Below, piece by piece: positions 1-44,680 of a stretch of 64,000 nt of DNA (the first letter of the stretch is position 1; each line of letters begins with the position of its first letter). Below the pieces are notes generated by a model. The model had not been told where the DNA came from and made no database searches. It was given only the letters and a program-made list of their open reading frames with translations. A program made the translations under genes and the position numbers. This DNA comes from Pedosphaera parvula Ellin514 (GTDB lineage Bacteria; Verrucomicrobiota; Verrucomicrobiia; Limisphaerales; Pedosphaeraceae): assembly GCF_000172555.1 (NCBI RefSeq), contig NZ_ABOX02000006.1, forward strand, positions 62,001 to 126,000, written 5' to 3'.

Positions 1-60
1 TTTGTGTGAACCGTAACACGTATCACCGAAACGAAAGAACACCGGTGGCTCATTCGCGTT

Positions 61-83
61 CCGGAGCGCCGGTTTCCAAACCG
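61..83. repeat. Short palindromic dispersed repeat, copy 1
   Basis: A 23-nt unit containing GGTTTCCAAACC recurs with one mismatch at 1187-1209. The core is self-complementary and could form a small hairpin. The rest of 1-240 shows no convincing gene. Confidence 0.6.
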
Positions 84-250
84 ACTTACGATGCAGTAAC
101 AACCACACCGCCCAATGTCTCACCATCGTTTCCGTCCAAGCGACAGCCCATCTTCATCTCCTTGGATAATTAATAAGAAAACTCAGATGGCAGTATGCTG
201 CCGTCTCCTACTTTGCCACAGAAGATTCCCGGAACCATCAAGTGCCCTTT

Positions 251-10396: not shown

Positions 10397-10816
10397 GGTA
10401 GGGCGCGTCACTCCGTGCGCGCCGCACTGACATCGTCCGGGACCCTGTCATTTCAACTGCATCCATCCGCGTACGCGACCCATGATCCAATCCAACCGCC
10501 AGGCACCTTCACTCGCGTAGCATCTCGGCGTGAGCCGGATCAAACTTCTCCCCGTCCCCGAGGCCCAAAGGGCCGGCTTTATCTTAGCCCAGCCCAACGG
10601 GCTGTGGTTAGCCCGCAAGGAATTCCCCCGCTTCGGCCCGCGATCTCAAACAGCTCCGCTCACGCATCCGAAGCGGAACCAACGACGACACCCGCGCAAC
10701 GTGCAGTAATCCACGACGCCACCCCAGCCGGTTCCCCCTCTCCCTTTGCAATGGGAGAGGGCGGGGTGAGGGAAAATGCGCCCAGACTTTCCGTAACTCT
10801 GGGGATCTCCCACAAA
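10397..10816. repeat. Repeat-filled spacer between portal and protease genes
   Basis: Contains a CCAGGTAGGGCG...CGCGCCGCACTGAC unit (about 10397-10432), a CGCGTACGCGACCCA unit (about 10470), a 186-bp unit (10516-10701) almost identical to 12951-13136, and a CTCTCCC/GGGAGAG hairpin unit (about 10738-10816) also seen at 4689. No credible gene is present. Confidence 0.8.
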
Positions 10817-12950: not shown

Positions 12951-13136
12951 CGTAGCATCTCGGCGTGAGCCGGATCAAACTTCTCCCTGTCCCCGAGGCC
13001 CAAAGGGCCGGCTTTATCTTAGCCCAGCCCAACGGGCTGTGGTTAGCCCGCAAGGAATTCCCCCGCTTCGGCCCGCGATCTCAAACAGCTCCGCTCATGC
13101 ATCCGAAGCGGAACCAACGACGACACCCGCGCAACG
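12951..13136. repeat. 186-bp dispersed repeat, second copy
   Basis: Nearly identical to 10516-10701; I count about two mismatches. A shorter relative lies near 4977. It contains GGCCCAAAGGGCC and AGCCCAACGGGCT palindromes, so it can fold into several small hairpins. Confidence 0.85.
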
Positions 13137-13220
13137 AACAGCAACCCAATTAGCCCAGACCCCAACGCGACAAGCCTCAAAGCCTTAGCCAAAAACCAAA
13201 AATTAAAAATCTTTTTCCAA

Positions 13221-15275
13221 ATGAACAAACCCACTTTCCTGCCAATCCTGGCCGCCGTTTTTCTATCCTCCATCTTCCATCCTCAATCCTCATCACTTGG
13301 CGCCACCATCACCGGCACCATTGTCAACACCGCCGGCCTTCCACTGGCCACCAACATCACCTTCACCCCCTTAAGCACGCCGCAGGTAAACGGCACCAAC
13401 CTCGTTTCCTCCACTATCAACACCATCACCAGCAGCCCCAACGGCGGATTCACCAACATTCTCAATGCCGGCGATTACAAAGTGACCATCGGCGCCGCCG
13501 CGCGCGATTCCTTTGTCATCACCGTCCCCACGAATTCCGGCACGTTCCAGATGAGCACACTGATCACCTCCGCCCTGGCCTACAACAGTTCCGCCGCACC
13601 CGCGTATGAATTCAAACTGAACAAAGGGCAAACAAACGGCTACCCGGCACTGGACGGCAGCGCACACGTCCCGACGACGCAACTCGGCAGTGGCACCGCA
13701 GGCACGAACACCTTTCTGCGCGGCGACGGTGCCTGGGTGACCGGCGTCGCGCGTTTGCCGGATGCCACGAACATCTTCAACGCGTTGAATCCATGGCAGC
13801 CAAATGCCAATTCCGGCGGCATCATTGCCACCAACCCCGTGACCATCCAGGCCGCAAATGATGGAACCTGGCCCTCGTTGGAATTTTCATTATACGATTA
13901 CTCTGTCCCTTACCAGTTCGCGAGCGCCTCCCTGCACATGGATGATTTGGGCGAAACCGTCCTCGCTTCCTCCGTGCCCTATTGGGCTCAGCAAGGCATT
14001 TATCTAGGCGGCGGCTCCAACCCCAAACTCACCGCGGACAATATTGGCGGATTACTCCTGGACGGCAACCCCCTAAGGGCAAACGATCCGGCCGCCTTAC
14101 AAGCTGCAAATAATCTTAGTGATGTGGCGAGTAAGAGTGCGGCGGCACAAAAGGTTGGGGTGTATCCGCTAATCCAGTCCGGTAGTTCATGGGGAGGATT
14201 TGCCGCAGCAACACCCTCGTACGTTAGACAACTAGGGCTAATGGATAATGGTGGTGGAGTTCCATATCTTGTATGGTCTAAATCTACATCTCAAGGTGAT
14301 TGGCAGGGTGGATTTGCATTTTACGGACAATGCCAGTTCGGTGACCCAACCCACATGAACCCAACCCGCGATGTTGCAGAGTTTAAATTCATCGTCAATG
14401 GCACCGGAGCAACCCAAGACCCTGCAACATTATCATCCCCTGCTGACAACGTTATGCGCTGGAAAAACCAATGCAGAACGCACTTTTCTGCCACTGCTTG
14501 GGATTCGTGCGACGCTGACGGATTGGGTGAGCGTGGCGCAATGGGGTATGGGAATTCCGCCTGCCCAATATATGTCAAACTAAACTATCTCGAATCATAC
14601 GGTACATTAAGCAGCTTTCTGTTCGCTGGCAGCGGTTACATATATTCCGGAATGGAAAAACTTTCTGGCGACTTCGTGCGATACTCTTCCAACACCACAA
14701 CCGACGATGTATCAAGAGTGACCTACCGCGTAAAATCCACAGGAGAAACCAGGCAGAATGGGGATAGCTATGTGCAAGGTATCATTCGAGCTGGAACTGG
14801 AGTGTTAAGTGGCGGTGGATATCCGATAACCACAACCGATGGCCATCTAAACACGCAATACTTGGATCCAACTCAGACTGCTACAATCAACCGAACACTT
14901 TTTAACACTAAGGGCACTCCCGCAAATCCTGCAATTGATATTGCTCTCAACGCGACTGGATTCGACGCTCAAAATTATAATTTGAACGTTGATGTTGGCG
15001 GATTGCCCAAGCTGACGTTTGACTCAGGCGGGACATTTGCGCGATTTACCAACGCTTGTTCAGTTGGATTTGGAGGCACTCCCAATACAACATGCGCCCA
15101 GGTGGACATTCAATCCACTACCAAGGGGTTGTTGCTCCCTCGCCTGACGAAAGCCCAGCGGGACGCTATTTCTTCTCCGGTTGCTGGTCTGGCTATTTAT
15201 CAGACAGACAGCACACCAGGGCTTCGTGTTTACAACGGTTCAACCTGGATGAGGTACACAGAAACAGCTGATTAA
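13221..15275 (+). CDS. Tail-fibre or appendage-like phage protein
   Basis: 684 residues. The N-terminus is hydrophobic and signal-peptide-like (MNKPTFLPILAAVFLSS), followed by a beta-rich carboxypeptidase-regulatory-like domain (ATITGTIVNTAGLPLATNITF). Then comes a repeat-poor fibre region with the FLRGDGAWV motif typical of fibres, and a C-terminal STTKGLLLPRLTKAQRDAI...GLAIYQTDSTPGLRVYNGSTW, a widespread terminal module of phage and surface fibres. It probably recognises host receptors or decorates the virion. It lies, unusually, between capsid and connector genes, and its second half is visibly AT-richer than the neighbours, which suggests module exchange. Confidence 0.75.
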   Translation: MNKPTFLPILAAVFLSSIFHPQSSSLGATITGTIVNTAGLPLATNITFTPLSTPQVNGTNLVSSTINTITSSPNGGFTNILNAGDYKVTIGAAARDSFVITVPTNSGTFQMSTLITSALAYNSSAAPAYEFKLNKGQTNGYPALDGSAHVPTTQLGSGTAGTNTFLRGDGAWVTGVARLPDATNIFNALNPWQPNANSGGIIATNPVTIQAANDGTWPSLEFSLYDYSVPYQFASASLHMDDLGETVLASSVPYWAQQGIYLGGGSNPKLTADNIGGLLLDGNPLRANDPAALQAANNLSDVASKSAAAQKVGVYPLIQSGSSWGGFAAATPSYVRQLGLMDNGGGVPYLVWSKSTSQGDWQGGFAFYGQCQFGDPTHMNPTRDVAEFKFIVNGTGATQDPATLSSPADNVMRWKNQCRTHFSATAWDSCDADGLGERGAMGYGNSACPIYVKLNYLESYGTLSSFLFAGSGYIYSGMEKLSGDFVRYSSNTTTDDVSRVTYRVKSTGETRQNGDSYVQGIIRAGTGVLSGGGYPITTTDGHLNTQYLDPTQTATINRTLFNTKGTPANPAIDIALNATGFDAQNYNLNVDVGGLPKLTFDSGGTFARFTNACSVGFGGTPNTTCAQVDIQSTTKGLLLPRLTKAQRDAISSPVAGLAIYQTDSTPGLRVYNGSTWMRYTETAD

Positions 15276-15964
15276 ACATGTTTAACAAACCAAAATCTCC
15301 TTTGGCCGCGCGGAAACTGCTTGGTGTTTTTGAGAGGCCAGTCGTAGAAATGGCCAGACGCATTCAGTCGAGCATCAAAGAACCTTTCAAATTGCATACG
15401 CTCCTCGCTGAGAATTCTCTCAACCCACGCCTGTGCGGGCCTACATCCAACTCCGTCAACGGCTTGGTCATAAACGTAGGCAGTCTCTTCGGCTTTAGGC
15501 AAGAACTGCGGATCATCAGAGTCCGAGCATTCGGTTTCCAAAATCAAATGGTCACTACACTGACAAGATTCACGCAAGGACCGCTCTGGTGTCTGCAAAT
15601 GATACAGCACTCCAAAGTGAATAATAATGTCATAATGCTCTTTGGAAGGAAGTCCTTGGTTCAGATCGTGAGTGATTGCTTTCAAACTTGGATAGCGCTG
15701 AACCAGCATTCGGGTGTTGTCTTTCCTCCCTTCAACGCACGTGACTTTGGCGCCGAGCATGGAAAAGAAATGGCCAATATCACCATGACCGGCACCCAAC
15801 TCCAAAAGCGTCTTTCCATAAAAGAACTGATGGCCGTAGTGATCGAGGATCATCTGAATGCGTTTTGCGCGCCATTCCTCATACCCGCCTTGAAAATGAG
15901 ACTCAAGCTTGCCAGAGAGCTTTTTAAGTTGATAGCGAGCGTAGTTTTTAATTCCTGTGCCCAT
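15272..15964 (-). CDS. Class I SAM-dependent methyltransferase (phage moron)
   Basis: 230 residues with a Rossmann-fold SAM-binding motif LLELGAGHGDIGHFF (about residues 52-66), an acidic CVEG at the end of the next strand and a DIIIHFGVLYHL motif typical of the Methyltransf_11/23 type. The substrate is unknown; such enzymes often modify glycans, lipids or small molecules. It runs against all surrounding phage genes and overlaps the end of the fibre gene by 4 nt. Base composition is more AT-rich than the structural genes. It is likely a cargo gene acquired with the fibre, possibly altering a surface sugar. Confidence 0.8.
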   Translation of the reverse strand: MGTGIKNYARYQLKKLSGKLESHFQGGYEEWRAKRIQMILDHYGHQFFYGKTLLELGAGHGDIGHFFSMLGAKVTCVEGRKDNTRMLVQRYPSLKAITHDLNQGLPSKEHYDIIIHFGVLYHLQTPERSLRESCQCSDHLILETECSDSDDPQFLPKAEETAYVYDQAVDGVGCRPAQAWVERILSEERMQFERFFDARLNASGHFYDWPLKNTKQFPRGQRRFWFVKHV

Positions 15965-17698: not shown

Positions 17699-18667
17699 AT
17701 GGAAATTACAGAAATCGGCCTTTTGGCCATCAGACAGGAATTTACTTACGGGGTGGATGCTGCGCCTGGCGGGTCCAATGTCATCCCGGTCGTCGGGGAT
17801 TCGTTGACGTATGAAGTCCAGTCCACCGCAACCGATCGCAAGGCCATGGATGGCACGCTCGATCGTGTTGCGGGATTCAACAGCATGCCGCAAGTCACGT
17901 TAAAGTTCAGTTATGAGTTGCGTGGCAATGGCACGATCCAAAACGGGTACAGCACTAATCCCATTGAAATCGATCCCTTGCTCCAGGCGGCCAATTTGAG
18001 CTCGGCTTATATTGCGGAATCAGAGTATGAGGCTGGCGATGGCAACGTCGGTTATACGCCCGCCATTTATACGGATGCCGGGCCGGGCGTGACCTGCTGC
18101 TGGTGGTCCGGCCAGAAGTTGCACCGGTTGGTGGGCGGCAAGGTGGACCTGAAACTGACTTGCGAGGTGGGCAAAATGTTCATCCTCGAGTTCACTGTGA
18201 TCGGCAAGTATTCGTCGGTTGTGGATGCCGCGCTGCCGCTGGGGGTCTCCTTTAACAGCATCAAACCACCATTGGTGAATGGCTCGATGTTCACGCTGGG
18301 TGGCTTATTCCCCATCCTCAACAAGTTTGAGTTTGAGCTCGGCAACCAAATCAAGATGCGCAAGAGCTTATCCAGCCCTGATGGTGTCGCCGGTTTTGTC
18401 ATTGCCGGACGCGCACCAAAAGGTCGCCTGGACCCGGAGTCGACGACGATCACTTCTCAGCCATATTGGGCAAAATGGAAAAGTTCAACCCTCATCCCCA
18501 TAGCGGTTATGTCCTCAACTCAACCCGGGAACAACTTTAGCCTAAGCTTCAACGCCGCCGAACTGAAGAGCGTGAATTACACCGGCCGCGACGAGTTGCG
18601 CATTCATCAGGTAGAATACAATCTCGTTCGCAACGGCGGCTCGCTCATCAGCCTTTATTTCTTATAA
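17699..18667 (+). CDS. Major tail (tube) protein, paralogue 1
   Basis: 322 residues starting MEITEIGLLAIRQEFTYG at ATG 17699; the longer open frame runs into the previous gene. It shares the same architecture and many motifs with the next gene: RKAMDGTLD, GFNSMPQVTLKFSYELRG, ALLQAANL-type DPLLQAANL, KLHRLVGGKV, and GFVIAGRAPKGRLDPES. Tail tube proteins of siphophages have this beta-rich form. Having two tandem copies suggests one forms the tube and the other an initiator or a variant subunit. Confidence 0.75.
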   Translation: MEITEIGLLAIRQEFTYGVDAAPGGSNVIPVVGDSLTYEVQSTATDRKAMDGTLDRVAGFNSMPQVTLKFSYELRGNGTIQNGYSTNPIEIDPLLQAANLSSAYIAESEYEAGDGNVGYTPAIYTDAGPGVTCCWWSGQKLHRLVGGKVDLKLTCEVGKMFILEFTVIGKYSSVVDAALPLGVSFNSIKPPLVNGSMFTLGGLFPILNKFEFELGNQIKMRKSLSSPDGVAGFVIAGRAPKGRLDPESTTITSQPYWAKWKSSTLIPIAVMSSTQPGNNFSLSFNAAELKSVNYTGRDELRIHQVEYNLVRNGGSLISLYFL

Positions 18668-18692: not shown

Positions 18693-19715
18693 ATGGAAAT
18701 CACCTCACTCGGTCTATTGACCATTAAAGCTGAATCGACCTACGGCACCGACGCGGTGCCGACTCTGGCAGCGAATCTCATTCCTCCCATTGGCGATTCC
18801 GTCTCGTGGAACGTGCAATCGACACCCGTCGATCGCAAACTCATGGACGGCACCCTGGACAATCTCGTCGGCTTTAACACGATGCCGAACGTGAACCTCA
18901 AGTTCCGTTATGAACTCCGGGGTAATCGCACCGATGGCACCACGGCGGACATTTCGTCTGGCAACAGTGCGCATGCCATCGAAATCGATTCGTTGTTGCA
19001 AGCCGCAAATTTGAATCCCACCTACACCGCGGAAAGCACCACCGGTTCGCGCAATGGTTACGTTGTCTATCAACCAAAAGTTTACAGCGGCGTCGGTCCC
19101 AGCGTGACCTGCTATTGGTACACCGCCCTGAAGTTGCACAAACTCGTCGGCGGCAAGGTCAACGTGGAAAAAATCACCTGGGAGGCCGGCAAGATTGTAA
19201 CGCTGGATATCTCCATCACGGGCAAGTACGTCGCTCCGATTGACAACAACTTCCCCACCAGCGGCACCACCTTCCTGGCGACCAAACCACCCTTGTTCGA
19301 CACCGCATCCGTTTCGATTGGCTCCTACAACGGCGCTGTCCTGAGCCAGCTCACCGTCGATCTCGGCAACAAGGTCAAATTGCGCAAGAGCGCCATCGAT
19401 GCCGACAGCATCGCCGGCTTCGTCATCAGCGGCATGGACCCGAAAGGGACCTTGGACCCGGAAAGCGTGGCTGAGGCAACGAATCCCTTCTGGGCCGATT
19501 GGCGCAATTCCAATGTGAAGACCATCACCGTCACCACCGGCGGCACGACTGCCGCCACTTCCGGCAACCAGTTCACTGGGACATTCGTATCGGAATACAA
19601 AGGCCTTCCATACGGAGCCCGTGACGATGTGCGCATTCTCCAAGTGGCCTTCAACATCGTCAAAGCGGATTTGACTGGAGCCGCCGGCAGCCAGTTCCAA
19701 TTAAAATTCTCCTAA
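18693..19715 (+). CDS. Major tail (tube) protein, paralogue 2
   Basis: 340 residues, starting MEITSLGLLTIKAESTYG behind AAAAGGAAA. Motifs match paralogue 1 nearly one for one (RKLMDGTLD, GFNTMPNVNLKFRYELRG, DSLLQAANL, KLHKLVGGKV, GFVISGMDPKGTLDPES, GARDDVRILQV). It has the better ribosome binding site of the two, so it may be the abundant tube subunit. Divergence is clear, so the duplication is not recent. Confidence 0.78.
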   Translation: MEITSLGLLTIKAESTYGTDAVPTLAANLIPPIGDSVSWNVQSTPVDRKLMDGTLDNLVGFNTMPNVNLKFRYELRGNRTDGTTADISSGNSAHAIEIDSLLQAANLNPTYTAESTTGSRNGYVVYQPKVYSGVGPSVTCYWYTALKLHKLVGGKVNVEKITWEAGKIVTLDISITGKYVAPIDNNFPTSGTTFLATKPPLFDTASVSIGSYNGAVLSQLTVDLGNKVKLRKSAIDADSIAGFVISGMDPKGTLDPESVAEATNPFWADWRNSNVKTITVTTGGTTAATSGNQFTGTFVSEYKGLPYGARDDVRILQVAFNIVKADLTGAAGSQFQLKFS

Positions 19716-19775
19716 CCACAACCAGGGCGGGGAAGTGACTAACCTGCCTCTCTCAACTCGCAACTCTCAACCACA

Positions 19776-20300
19776 ATGAAATCCCAACTCTCAACCACCG
19801 ACTCTCAACTCGTCACCATTGCCGACCACGACGCCGGCTTCAAGGAACTCGAAGTACTTTACCGCAACGGCAAACGCGAAAACATCAAACTCACCGCGCC
19901 GACCTATCGCCACGCACAGCAGATCGCGTTCAAATTGTCACAGACCAAAAATCCCCTGGTCATCACCGAAGCCTGCCTGCCCGCGGAATTCCAAAAGGAT
20001 GTGGAACGGTTTCTCGGCCGCCTGACTCCCGAGTTCGGTGCCCTGGTCGAAGCCACCTCTTTCGCGTTGACCTTTGGCAGTGAGTTTCAAAAAAAAATGC
20101 TGCAGGTGGGCGAACGGCTGATGCAGGCGATGGCCTCGACGGACTCCGTGCCGAACTCGCTCTCGTCGCTGCCGGATTCCAGTCCTGCGAAGTCAGACGA
20201 TTCTCACTTCCCAAGTTGCGAATCTACTTCCAGCTCACCCGCGAGCGGCAAATCCAACTCGACCTCCGACGCGTCATCATCGCCAGTTGCAGCGGCATGA
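19776..20300 (+). CDS. Tail assembly chaperone, short form (gpG-like)
   Basis: 174 residues in the zero frame. The first roughly 107 are a compact domain (FKELEVLYRNGKRENIKLTAP; HAQQIAFKLSQTKNPLVITEACLPAEFQKDVERFLGRLTPE). After the A-run at 20089-20097 the zero-frame tail becomes serine/proline-rich low complexity (SSLPDSSPAKSDDS), as expected where the alternative frame is the one under selection. It sits between tube and tape measure genes, the classic site of G/GT chaperones that coat the tape measure protein before tail polymerisation. The first codons are encoded by CTCAAC micro-repeats. Confidence 0.8.
   Translation: MKSQLSTTDSQLVTIADHDAGFKELEVLYRNGKRENIKLTAPTYRHAQQIAFKLSQTKNPLVITEACLPAEFQKDVERFLGRLTPEFGALVEATSFALTFGSEFQKKMLQVGERLMQAMASTDSVPNSLSSLPDSSPAKSDDSHFPSCESTSSSPASGKSNSTSDASSSPVAAA
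20089..20097 (+). promoter_or_regulatory. Programmed -1 frameshift site
   Basis: Nine adenines, read CAA AAA AAA ATG in the zero frame, contain the heptamer A-AAA-AAA (20090-20096). Slipping back one base enters a frame that is open from 20084 to 20446. Confidence 0.8.
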
Positions 20301-20446
20301 CCGGCGACGGCATCAAACAGATATATCACCAAATGGAAAATGAGTTGCGGGATCTTTCCACCGACAACTCCCAACCTTCAACCGGCGAAACCTGGGAACC
20401 ACCCAGCCTGGAGCGGATCAAAAAGCGGATGGGCATGATGACATAA
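20096..20446 (+). CDS. Tail assembly chaperone, frameshift extension (T part of gpGT)
   Basis: This -1 frame has no stop from 20084 to 20446 and adds 116 residues to the first 107 of the short form, giving a roughly 223-residue fusion. It contains SLPKLRIYFQLTRERQIQLDLRRVIIASCSGM in outline and a C-terminal EPPSLERIKKRMGMM, a far more protein-like composition than the zero-frame tail. A TTG at 20216 could in principle start it independently, but there is no ribosome binding site. In known systems the T part binds the tape measure or tube subunits. The tape measure gene starts 12 nt later. Confidence 0.75.
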   Translation, partial: NAAGGRTADAGDGLDGLRAELALVAAGFQSCEVRRFSLPKLRIYFQLTRERQIQLDLRRVIIASCSGMTGDGIKQIYHQMENELRDLSTDNSQPSTGETWEPPSLERIKKRMGMMT

Positions 20447-20458
20447 ATAAGGACAAGG

Positions 20459-22792
20459 ATGAACACCTATAATACACAAATAAATATTGCCATGCAGGTC
20501 GCGGGCGATGGCGCGAAGAAGGCAGGAGACGATCTTGCCGAATTGGAGAAGAAGACCAAGGCTAGCGAGGAAGCCTTCAAGAAAATGAAGGAGCAGGCGG
20601 AATCCGCGATCAAAGTGCTGGAAGGCATTCATAAGCTGATGGAGATGTACACCGCTCATGAAAAGGTGGTGGACCAGCTCAATGGTGCCCTTCGCCTTTC
20701 CGGACAATACTCGCAATCCTACTCCCGGGAGTTGCAGGAACAAGCCGAAGCCCTCAGTCGCGTCACCACCGCGTCCGATACGACAATCATGAAAGTGCAG
20801 GCGCTGCTCTCCTCCTTCGGTGCCACGAAGGAGGAGATGCCCGGGCTGACCAAGGCGGTCCTGGACTTCGCCGCTGGGACCGGAAAGGACGTCGTGACTG
20901 CCGCACAGGATTTGGGTAAGGCAATTTCCGGGCAGGAAAGTTCCCTGAGTAACCTGGGGATGAAATTCGATAAAACTGCCGGCCAGGGCAAAAATCTTTC
21001 CCAGGCAGCCGAGCTGATTGAGTCCAAATTCAAAGGGATGGCCGAGGCTGCCGACCATTCATCCGGTGCCAAGGTGGAAGATCTCGATAAGGCGTGGGAA
21101 CATTTCAAAACCACGCTGGGCGGCCTCGCTGCCGACGGTTTAAAACCTGTCATCGAGGGCGTGACCTTGCTCTTAAACCAAACCTCCGATTTGTTCAAGG
21201 AGGGATCACAGGCCAGCGAATACGCCAAGTATTTTATCGAGTTTGCGGCGGGTGTCGCTGCCACTACCGCTGCCATTAACACTTTCAAGATGGGCTGGCA
21301 GCTCGCCAGTGGCGCCGCGATTCAAGAAATCGGCGCATTGCGTGGTGTTCTCGGCGCTCTGCCCCAGGCCATTCCCATCGCCATCACCGTTGCGGCTACC
21401 ATTCAAGTCATCCGCGCCGTGCAGGAAGGCGTCGCCATGAAAAAGGCGTTTGATCAGGAGAAAAACTCGGTGGACCAGGGATTGGGAGGGGCTGATAAAC
21501 AGCGTCAGGGATTACAGAATGAAATTCAAAAATATCTCCAGGAACATCCGGAGGAAAAGCATAAGGTCGCGGGATGGTTTGGCCTGATCGGTGATAACTT
21601 CCAGGACACGGGCGACAGCCAGACTGATCTGGAAAGTCGTCAGAGGGTTCTGAAATCGGTTCGCGAAGGCCTGGTCCGAAATCAACAAAGATTTTCTGCC
21701 GCTTCAAAAACTTCAACTGCTGCCACCGCCTCTGCTGCTGACCCGACAGATCCATTTTCCGTGGGCGACTTCGGCTTTGGTGTGCAGGATCCACTTGGGC
21801 CGCAGTTGCCCATTCCACTGGATACCAATGCAGGTTCCGATACCGCCATTCAGCAGGCACAAGCCACCGAGCAAAAAATAACCGAAATTAAAAAGGAAAA
21901 CCTGCAGGTGCGTCAGCAAGATACCGAACAATGCTGTGCCGATGAGCAACAGGCAAATGCAGCAGCCCAGACTGCCATCGCGACGGCCACAGATCAGACC
22001 ACCACAAAGATAAAGGCAAACAACCAGGCGCAGAAGCAGAGCTTTGAGGACATTGATGCCGAAGTGAAAAAGATCGCTGTGACGGCCGAAAACAGTTTTG
22101 CCAGCGGCCTTTCCCATGCCTTCATGTCCATCATTGATGGCTCAAAATCTGCCGGCGACGCCTTCAAGGATTTTGCCAAAAGTTTCCTCTCTCAAATAGC
22201 GGAGATGATCATGCAAATGCTGATCCTCGATGCGTTGAAATCAGTGCTTGCTTTTGGGGACGGTGGGCAGGCCGCGAGTCCCGCAGCCAAAGGGGGCATG
22301 TTTCCTTTCACCGCCGCCGCCACTGGCGTCATGCTCGCCGCGGCCGGGGTTCAAGGCGTCAACGACGTCAACGGCCCCACCTACTTTCCCAAATTCAATG
22401 TGCTCGCCGGTGAAGCCGGCCATGAAGTCATGACCGTCATGGCCAAACCTCAAATGGGAAACATCGACGGCATGCCGGTCATACTTGGCAATGTCGGCCC
22501 GGAAAAACTCGCCGTTCTCTCGCAGGCCAATCTCAGCCGCATGGTGCAAGGCAGCGGCAAAGCCACCTTTGCTGCCAGCGGCTATATGACCGCTGGCGTC
22601 AGTGAAACCGGCCTCAGCGTCAGCCGTCAAACTAACCAGCCCGATGGCCGCATCGTGGTGGAATTGACTCCTCATCCCGCCTACGAAACCCGCATCATCG
22701 AAAACTCCATCCAGGGCGCCCGCGTCGCCGTCGCTTCTGACCTCGCCACCGACACCCCCATCCGCAACCAGGTCAAAAGCGTGTTCTCCTGA
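20459..22792 (+). CDS. Tail tape measure protein
   Basis: 777 residues behind AAGGACAAGG. The N-terminus is charged and helical (GDDLAELEKKTKASEEAFKKMKEQ), followed by the lambda-type domain (VDQLNGALRLSGQYSQ; LSSFGATKEEMPGLTKAVLDFAAGTGKDV; AISGQESSLSNLGMKF). Hydrophobic helices lie at about 255-325, and a C-terminal glycine/alanine-rich region follows FMSIIDGSKSAGDAFKDFAKSFLSQIAEMIMQM. It sets tail length and may aid DNA passage. At 777 residues the tail should be rather short for a siphovirus. Confidence 0.92.
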   Translation: MNTYNTQINIAMQVAGDGAKKAGDDLAELEKKTKASEEAFKKMKEQAESAIKVLEGIHKLMEMYTAHEKVVDQLNGALRLSGQYSQSYSRELQEQAEALSRVTTASDTTIMKVQALLSSFGATKEEMPGLTKAVLDFAAGTGKDVVTAAQDLGKAISGQESSLSNLGMKFDKTAGQGKNLSQAAELIESKFKGMAEAADHSSGAKVEDLDKAWEHFKTTLGGLAADGLKPVIEGVTLLLNQTSDLFKEGSQASEYAKYFIEFAAGVAATTAAINTFKMGWQLASGAAIQEIGALRGVLGALPQAIPIAITVAATIQVIRAVQEGVAMKKAFDQEKNSVDQGLGGADKQRQGLQNEIQKYLQEHPEEKHKVAGWFGLIGDNFQDTGDSQTDLESRQRVLKSVREGLVRNQQRFSAASKTSTAATASAADPTDPFSVGDFGFGVQDPLGPQLPIPLDTNAGSDTAIQQAQATEQKITEIKKENLQVRQQDTEQCCADEQQANAAAQTAIATATDQTTTKIKANNQAQKQSFEDIDAEVKKIAVTAENSFASGLSHAFMSIIDGSKSAGDAFKDFAKSFLSQIAEMIMQMLILDALKSVLAFGDGGQAASPAAKGGMFPFTAAATGVMLAAAGVQGVNDVNGPTYFPKFNVLAGEAGHEVMTVMAKPQMGNIDGMPVILGNVGPEKLAVLSQANLSRMVQGSGKATFAASGYMTAGVSETGLSVSRQTNQPDGRIVVELTPHPAYETRIIENSIQGARVAVASDLATDTPIRNQVKSVFS

Positions 22793-44576: not shown

Positions 44577-44680
44577 CAACAGATCCTAAAGAGTCCCAAA
44601 GGGACGCCGTCATTAGCCAGGGGCGTGAGCCCCTGGAAAGGTGCAAATAAAATCAGCCCCAACGGGGCGGCAGTACCTCC
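44577..44680. repeat. REP-like hairpins without transposase
   Basis: Three small palindromes in a row: GTCCCAAAGGGAC, CCAGGGGCGTGAGCCCCTGG and GCCCCAACGGGGC. The last is the same core as in the REP elements at 0.25, 50.6 and 51.27 kb. Confidence 0.65.

Follow-up and report, generated by a model that had tools for sequence, protein, structure and literature searches.

The window, by which we mean the whole 64 kb stretch of DNA analysed here, comes from a host genome available as a 7.41 Mb draft in 102 contigs. Around the site of interest it carries a phage head-tail module with genes for the terminase, portal, prohead protease, major capsid protein, connectors and tail terminator. The same module continues with two tail tube genes, an overlapping pair of reading frames that we refer to as G and T, the tape measure gene and further tail genes (Table 1). 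The initial annotation placed the pair between the tube and tape measure genes, and this position was recovered, with a Phage_tube_2 gene on the upstream side. The two tail tube paralogues are arranged in tandem (17699-18664 and 18693-19712) and are 46% identical; in each of seven related loci searched, the stretch covered holds a single tube gene, versus two in the window.

G is read in the zero frame and overlaps an open reading frame in the -1 frame. The run of nine A's (A9) in the overlap, reported initially as giving A-AAA-AAA in the phase of G, is exact in the sequence, where the surrounding zero-frame codons are TTT CAA AAA AAA ATG. It is the sole A9 or T9 across the 64 kb window, and A_AAA_AAA is the sole in-phase heptamer of the form X_XXY_YYZ within the window's G/-1 overlap. 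Frame analysis bore out the openness of the -1 frame over the whole interval described. When G is read through the second AAA codon and then continued in the -1 frame, the fused product, GT, has 223 residues, the same length as first predicted. The junction peptide proposed at that time (QKKNAGGR) was one A short; the actual peptide is QKKNAAGGR, with the change of frame falling between QKK and NAAGGR. A second copy of the 5' end of G (19742-19815) was not found in the genome.

Table 1 Features of the G/T locus in the window and positions of the A9 run in three related viral-contig loci
Feature	Position	Strand	Remarks
Tail tube protein gene (Phage_tube_2)	18693-19715	+	Just upstream of G
Gene G, tail assembly chaperone (predicted)	19776-20300, stop included	+	Zero frame, 174 aa
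G protein core	Residues about 15-123		Followed by an S/P-rich, low-confidence tail
-1 frame ORF, stop to stop (T domain)	20084-20446	+	Translated (predicted) from 20096, 116 aa
Slippery A9 run	20089-20097	+	In-phase heptamer A_AAA_AAA at 20090-20096
Post-slip stretch	20097-20138	+	Zero frame better conserved (end of G helix); -1 frame a variable linker
Tape measure protein gene	20459-22792	+	Just downstream of T
A9 run, L003	4284-4292		
A9 run, L004	4336-4344		
A9 run, L020	2549-2557		

Conservation of the run, its phase and the T frame

Viral contigs were scanned seven times, with between one and four contigs obtained per scan and four different ones overall, the window's own included. Loss of the A run or of the -1 frame among relatives was looked for, as the initial annotation had suggested, and both were found to be kept: A9 is exact and the -1 T frame is open in all four viral-contig loci (window, L003, L004 and L020), down to about 30% protein identity. 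G is 51, 29 and 34% identical to the window protein in L003, L004 and L020, respectively, and T is 54, 30 and 31% identical. The L004 run begins at the third base of a codon (TCA AAA AAA AAG), versus the second in the window, and still consists of nine A's; relative to the run of the window, it is displaced downstream by about ten residues in the G alignment.

A tube profile searched over 320 genomes of the order matched eight genomes, including the window's own, and six loci were fetched. Based on a search of five sequences, G and T of loci L045-L048 are both homologous to those of the window (profile E-values of 2e-12 to 2e-6 for G and 4e-8 to 2e-6 for T). Their slip codons fall at the same alignment column, that of the aligned KK, and read A6G in L045 and L048, A7 in L046 and A8 in L047. 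Together with the four viral-contig loci these make up eight homologous loci. Runs of at least eight or nine A's are found in the window, L003, L004 and L020 (A9) and in L047 (A8), and the run is shorter in L045, L046, L048 and L049. A first profile scan of genome contigs gave no match; a second gave four contigs, which their equal tube match identifies as those of L045-L048. In L048 (G817:C176) the tube ORF is continuous but encodes an extra segment of roughly 80 residues, inserted within the protein.

To place these loci in a wider sample, 16 loci picked by tube homology were examined, comprising the viral-contig loci, the six loci of the order and six named phage records. The named records are 6 of 11 that matched the tube; the remaining five are Rhizobium phages, one of which duplicates an opened record. 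An in-phase A_AAA_AAN was found in 13 of the 16 tube-gene loci and G_GGA_AAC in two, and L050 (G844) has only C_CCT_TTG. The G frame of each locus was chosen from ORF lists with the -1 overlap in view, and the heptamer and its phase were scored afterwards; the presence of an overlapping -1 ORF is therefore not an independent count. Extra in-phase heptamers occur in L003 (C_CCA_AAT), in L004 (a second register of the same run) and in L045 (G_GGA_AAA, overlapping A_AAA_AAG). Alteromonas phage P24, Microcystis phage Mae-JY22, Synechococcus phage S-LBS1 and Rhodobacter phage RcZahn resemble the window in having a related tube gene followed by an ORF with an in-phase A_AAA_AAC and a -1 ORF. They differ from it in that the slip site lies 3-30 nt before the G stop and has six A's, and their relationship to the window is by the tube protein.

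We asked how often such a site appears by chance. When the codons of the window's G gene alone were shuffled, an in-phase A_AAA_AAN arose in the overlap in 4.8% of shuffles, and the same shuffle applied to each of the eight homologous loci gave 0.6-4.8%. Because the heptamer is obtained by chance this often, the window sequence alone is weak evidence for a slip site; the evidence is strong because the site is conserved in relatives. At all eight homologous sites the slip is preceded by a codon with a final A, and AAA comes next; such codons are often uncommon in those loci. The codon-usage chances multiplied over the eight sites come to 1e-9, which is an overstatement, since the loci are related by descent and the sites had been located with this same heptamer.

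Two points of the window locus are unusual, the strict A9 and the long tail of G after the slip. The zero-frame tail measures 204 nt in the window, 216 nt in L003 and 186 nt in L046, and 3-102 nt in the remaining 13 of the 16 loci. By comparison, the mean reported by PRFect for SEA-PHAGES is 26 nt (PMC10885494, in extract).

Several candidates were set aside. L049 was left out of the homologues despite its A_AAA_AAC, as its G and T compare with those of the window at E-values of 0.7 and 0.3. Three weak matches to the T profile among 387 genomes of the phylum (L014, L015 and L016) were dropped because their ORF lists indicated unrelated contexts, and G487 (L036) was left out on account of a match of just 62 residues to the tube profile. 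The first 123 residues of G, searched against the 387 phylum genomes, gave a match in the window's own genome only.

Selection along the overlap and predicted structure

The ratio pN/pS was calculated from one sequence pair, the window and L003, for which synonymous sites are near-saturated. Zero-frame values are 0.40 upstream of the run, 0.65 for the 14 codons that follow it and 1.38 between 20139 and the stop of G; the last of these leaves selection on the zero-frame tail itself unsupported beyond about 14 codons. The -1 frame gives 1.2 for the first stretch after the run. The initial impression that the -1 frame is the selected one agrees with its values over the next two segments, 0.44 and, beyond the G stop, 0.47. 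About 14 codons past the run, purifying selection as seen in this pair passes from the zero frame to the -1 frame. Based on the pN/pS by segment, the first post-run stretch is part of G, where the -1 frame forms a linker. Of the first 14 zero-frame codons after the run, 7 are identical to L003. The earlier description of the zero-frame tail as low in complexity does not hold for these conserved codons; the S/P-rich, low-confidence part begins after them.

In the structural model of G, a single helix spans residues 85-123 and runs through the slip site at residue 107; most of the model beyond it falls below a pLDDT of 50. This agrees with the segmentation by pN/pS, in that G continues through the slip site. 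The G model aligns with YqbN (3klu) at Z 7.5 over 84 residues with 14% identity and with the HK97 tail chaperone (2ob9) at Z 4.7 over 80 residues with 10% identity. Because both Z scores are below 8, we read these matches as a shared arrangement and not as proof of kinship. Three Foldseek searches gave no match reaching an E-value of 0.001. The best viral match of G was to the 'Pre-tape measure frameshift protein G' of Xylella phage Sano (E 0.01, probability 0.90, TM-score 0.25). Searching with the structural model of T (mean pLDDT 70) yielded nothing meaningful.

Neither G nor T of the window matched a chaperone family in Pfam or PHROG. Their nearest family matches are at chance level, as for T with phrog_166 (tail protein, E 0.2). 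The G proteins of homologues L045-L048 likewise matched no tail family, and the set is thus considered divergent. Among the G proteins of ten relatives, those of L023 and L024 match phrog_569 (named tape measure), and that of L024 also matches phrog_313 (tail assembly chaperone). The G protein of L049 touches Phage_TAC_16 below the cut-off.

Probable frameshifting at the A9 run and alternative readings

Xu, Hendrix and Duda reportedly described, in 2004, G/GT tail assembly chaperones in lambda and other long-tailed phages. The lambda slip site is G_GGA_AAG. As in lambda, the window has two overlapping ORFs beside the tape measure gene, a -1 shift predicted near the end of G and a T that would be reached through the shift; unlike lambda, its slip site consists of nine A's and it has no family-level sequence match. 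Conservation of the G/GT frameshift is widespread in long-tailed phages; in lambda, the tape measure protein is bound by gpG and by the corresponding part of gpGT, and the tube protein by T, with a G:GT ratio of about 30:1 and both products absent from the finished virion (PMC5009743, in extract). Frameshifting has been measured at 6% and 7% for two phage tail chaperone genes (PMC3711429, in extract).

The programmed -1 frameshift of the G/GT type put forward in the initial annotation is supported by the position of the pair, the phase of the heptamer, the -1 ORF, the missing T start, the conservation in relatives and the switch in selection. A lambda-type G/GT frameshift, most likely ribosomal, is in our judgement quite probable. 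G and T would then encode the paired tail assembly chaperones of a siphophage-like prophage. We infer slippage at a rate such that the majority of ribosomes would read G to its stop, giving the short product, and a minority would slip back one base on A_AAA_AAA, with the two Lys codons re-pairing one base upstream. The slipped ribosomes would go on in the -1 frame to produce GT. If lambda is a guide, the tape measure protein may be coated by G, either free or as part of GT, while T recruits tube subunits, and G and GT would both leave the virion afterwards. Position, architecture and the modest fold match point to this job for G and GT.

The same two proteins would result if RNA polymerase added an A on A9, so that part of the mRNA carried A10 and read G into T. 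The length of the run would permit this: polymerase slippage is listed for runs of more than 7 A's, and Thermus dnaX uses nine (PMC3711429, in extract); in Citrobacter tssM the slip occurs at A11, and an A9 is present in Yersinia tssM3 (PMC4256274, in extract). The window resembles Thermus dnaX and Citrobacter tssM in combining nine or more A's with two (here predicted) protein lengths per gene (PMC3711429, PMC4256274, in extract), but its relatives keep the frame relation with just six A's plus G. The presence of exactly nine A's in 4/4 close loci, in two codon phases, is as expected under selection on run length. However, the conserved codons Q-K-K fix part of A9, the in-phase runs of the homologous G/T pairs from this order are A8, A7 and A6G, and A_AAA_AAC occurs in 4 of the 6 named phages opened, so that the common denominator of the loci is the ribosomal heptamer and not run length. 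A run of six A's is not known to act as a polymerase slip site. Slippage by the polymerase is on balance unlikely. Since the run is shortened to A_AAA_AAN in relatives that nevertheless keep its phase, the frameshift is most likely ribosomal, and these sequence comparisons favour the ribosome as the slipping machine. Both UUU and CUU anticodons of tRNA-Lys are present in the host, compatible with either machine. Downstream RNA structure was assessed in eight pseudoknot-free folds (two lengths in four loci), none of which stood out from shuffles (z scores of -0.80 to 1.55), and inspection by eye found no conserved Shine-Dalgarno-like element. A change of machine within this one family of homologous chaperones is also doubtful: the branch with the window may have lengthened its slip site to exactly nine A's, with the polymerase, alone or with the ribosome, setting the G:GT ratio and the sisters with six or seven A's relying on the ribosome only. 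If true, a gene for phage morphogenesis would show the kind of switch that separates the dnaX genes of Thermus and E. coli.

Readings that dispense with a slip at A9 fare far worse. T could be a separate gene with its own start, as in Rhodobacter phage RcZahn, where the corresponding -1 ORF is annotated separately as gene 28, a tail assembly chaperone, with an ATG at the end of G. This is very improbable for the window, whose earliest ATG, GTG or TTG in the -1 frame is the TTG at 20216, inside the conserved T domain and after the DGLRAELALVAAGF block; a T begun there would miss the conserved DGLRAEL block. The first starts are also late in L003 (TTG 4423) and L046 (TTG 2590). The argument is strongest for these three loci, since L004 offers a TTG nearer the run (4375) and L020 has -1 frame ATG codons upstream of it. 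A homopolymer sequencing error (a true A10), or a decayed gene in a broken prophage, might be suspected, given that homopolymers are error-prone and the prophage sits in a draft of many contigs, but three other contigs carry the same A9 and open -1 frame, other run lengths preserve the register and purifying selection acts on each frame within its own segment; we regard error or decay as scarcely credible. It is equally hard to credit a switch to the -1 frame elsewhere in the overlap, near 20139, where the selected frame changes. Zero-frame conservation does extend about 14 codons beyond the run, but a conserved zero-frame end is expected because G is itself a product, the window's overlap has no further in-phase heptamer and the slip column is shared by the eight homologues.

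A programmed -1 frameshift in G/T would be a known recoding trick in a new lineage, and is not surprising. It would extend a well-known phage recoding system to prophages of the Verrucomicrobiota. The initial statement that the locus shows recoding in this phylum goes too far, as recoding here is a reading of the sequence and is preceded by predictions, namely 690 frame transitions in four Verrucomicrobia genomes (PMC3711429, in extract). Among the matches listed in a literature search, judged by titles and the openings of abstracts, there were no papers on frameshifting in phages of Verrucomicrobia. For annotation, the correction is a predicted 223-residue GT that start-to-stop ORF calling misses. 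The series from A6G to A9 at homologous in-phase sites is suited to asking when a translational slip site turns transcriptional.

Other features of the window and its contig

The genes for the protease and capsid are flanked by a direct repeat of 198 bases (10516-10713 and 12951-13148, 97% identical). Matches to parts of this repeat occur at 38 or more other places across the host genome (40 of 76 candidates scored), and it thus looks like an interspersed host repeat. Within the head-tail module, a methyltransferase-like gene (15272-15964, minus strand) lies on the opposite strand in a stretch of lower G+C. An Acido-Lenti-1 small RNA (RF01687) was detected above the gathering score at 44592-44636 on the minus strand. 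Outside the window, at 187800-202500 of the same contig (L081), 15 tRNA genes form a one-strand array; several of their anticodons are also present elsewhere in the genome, and the array is possibly another mobile element.
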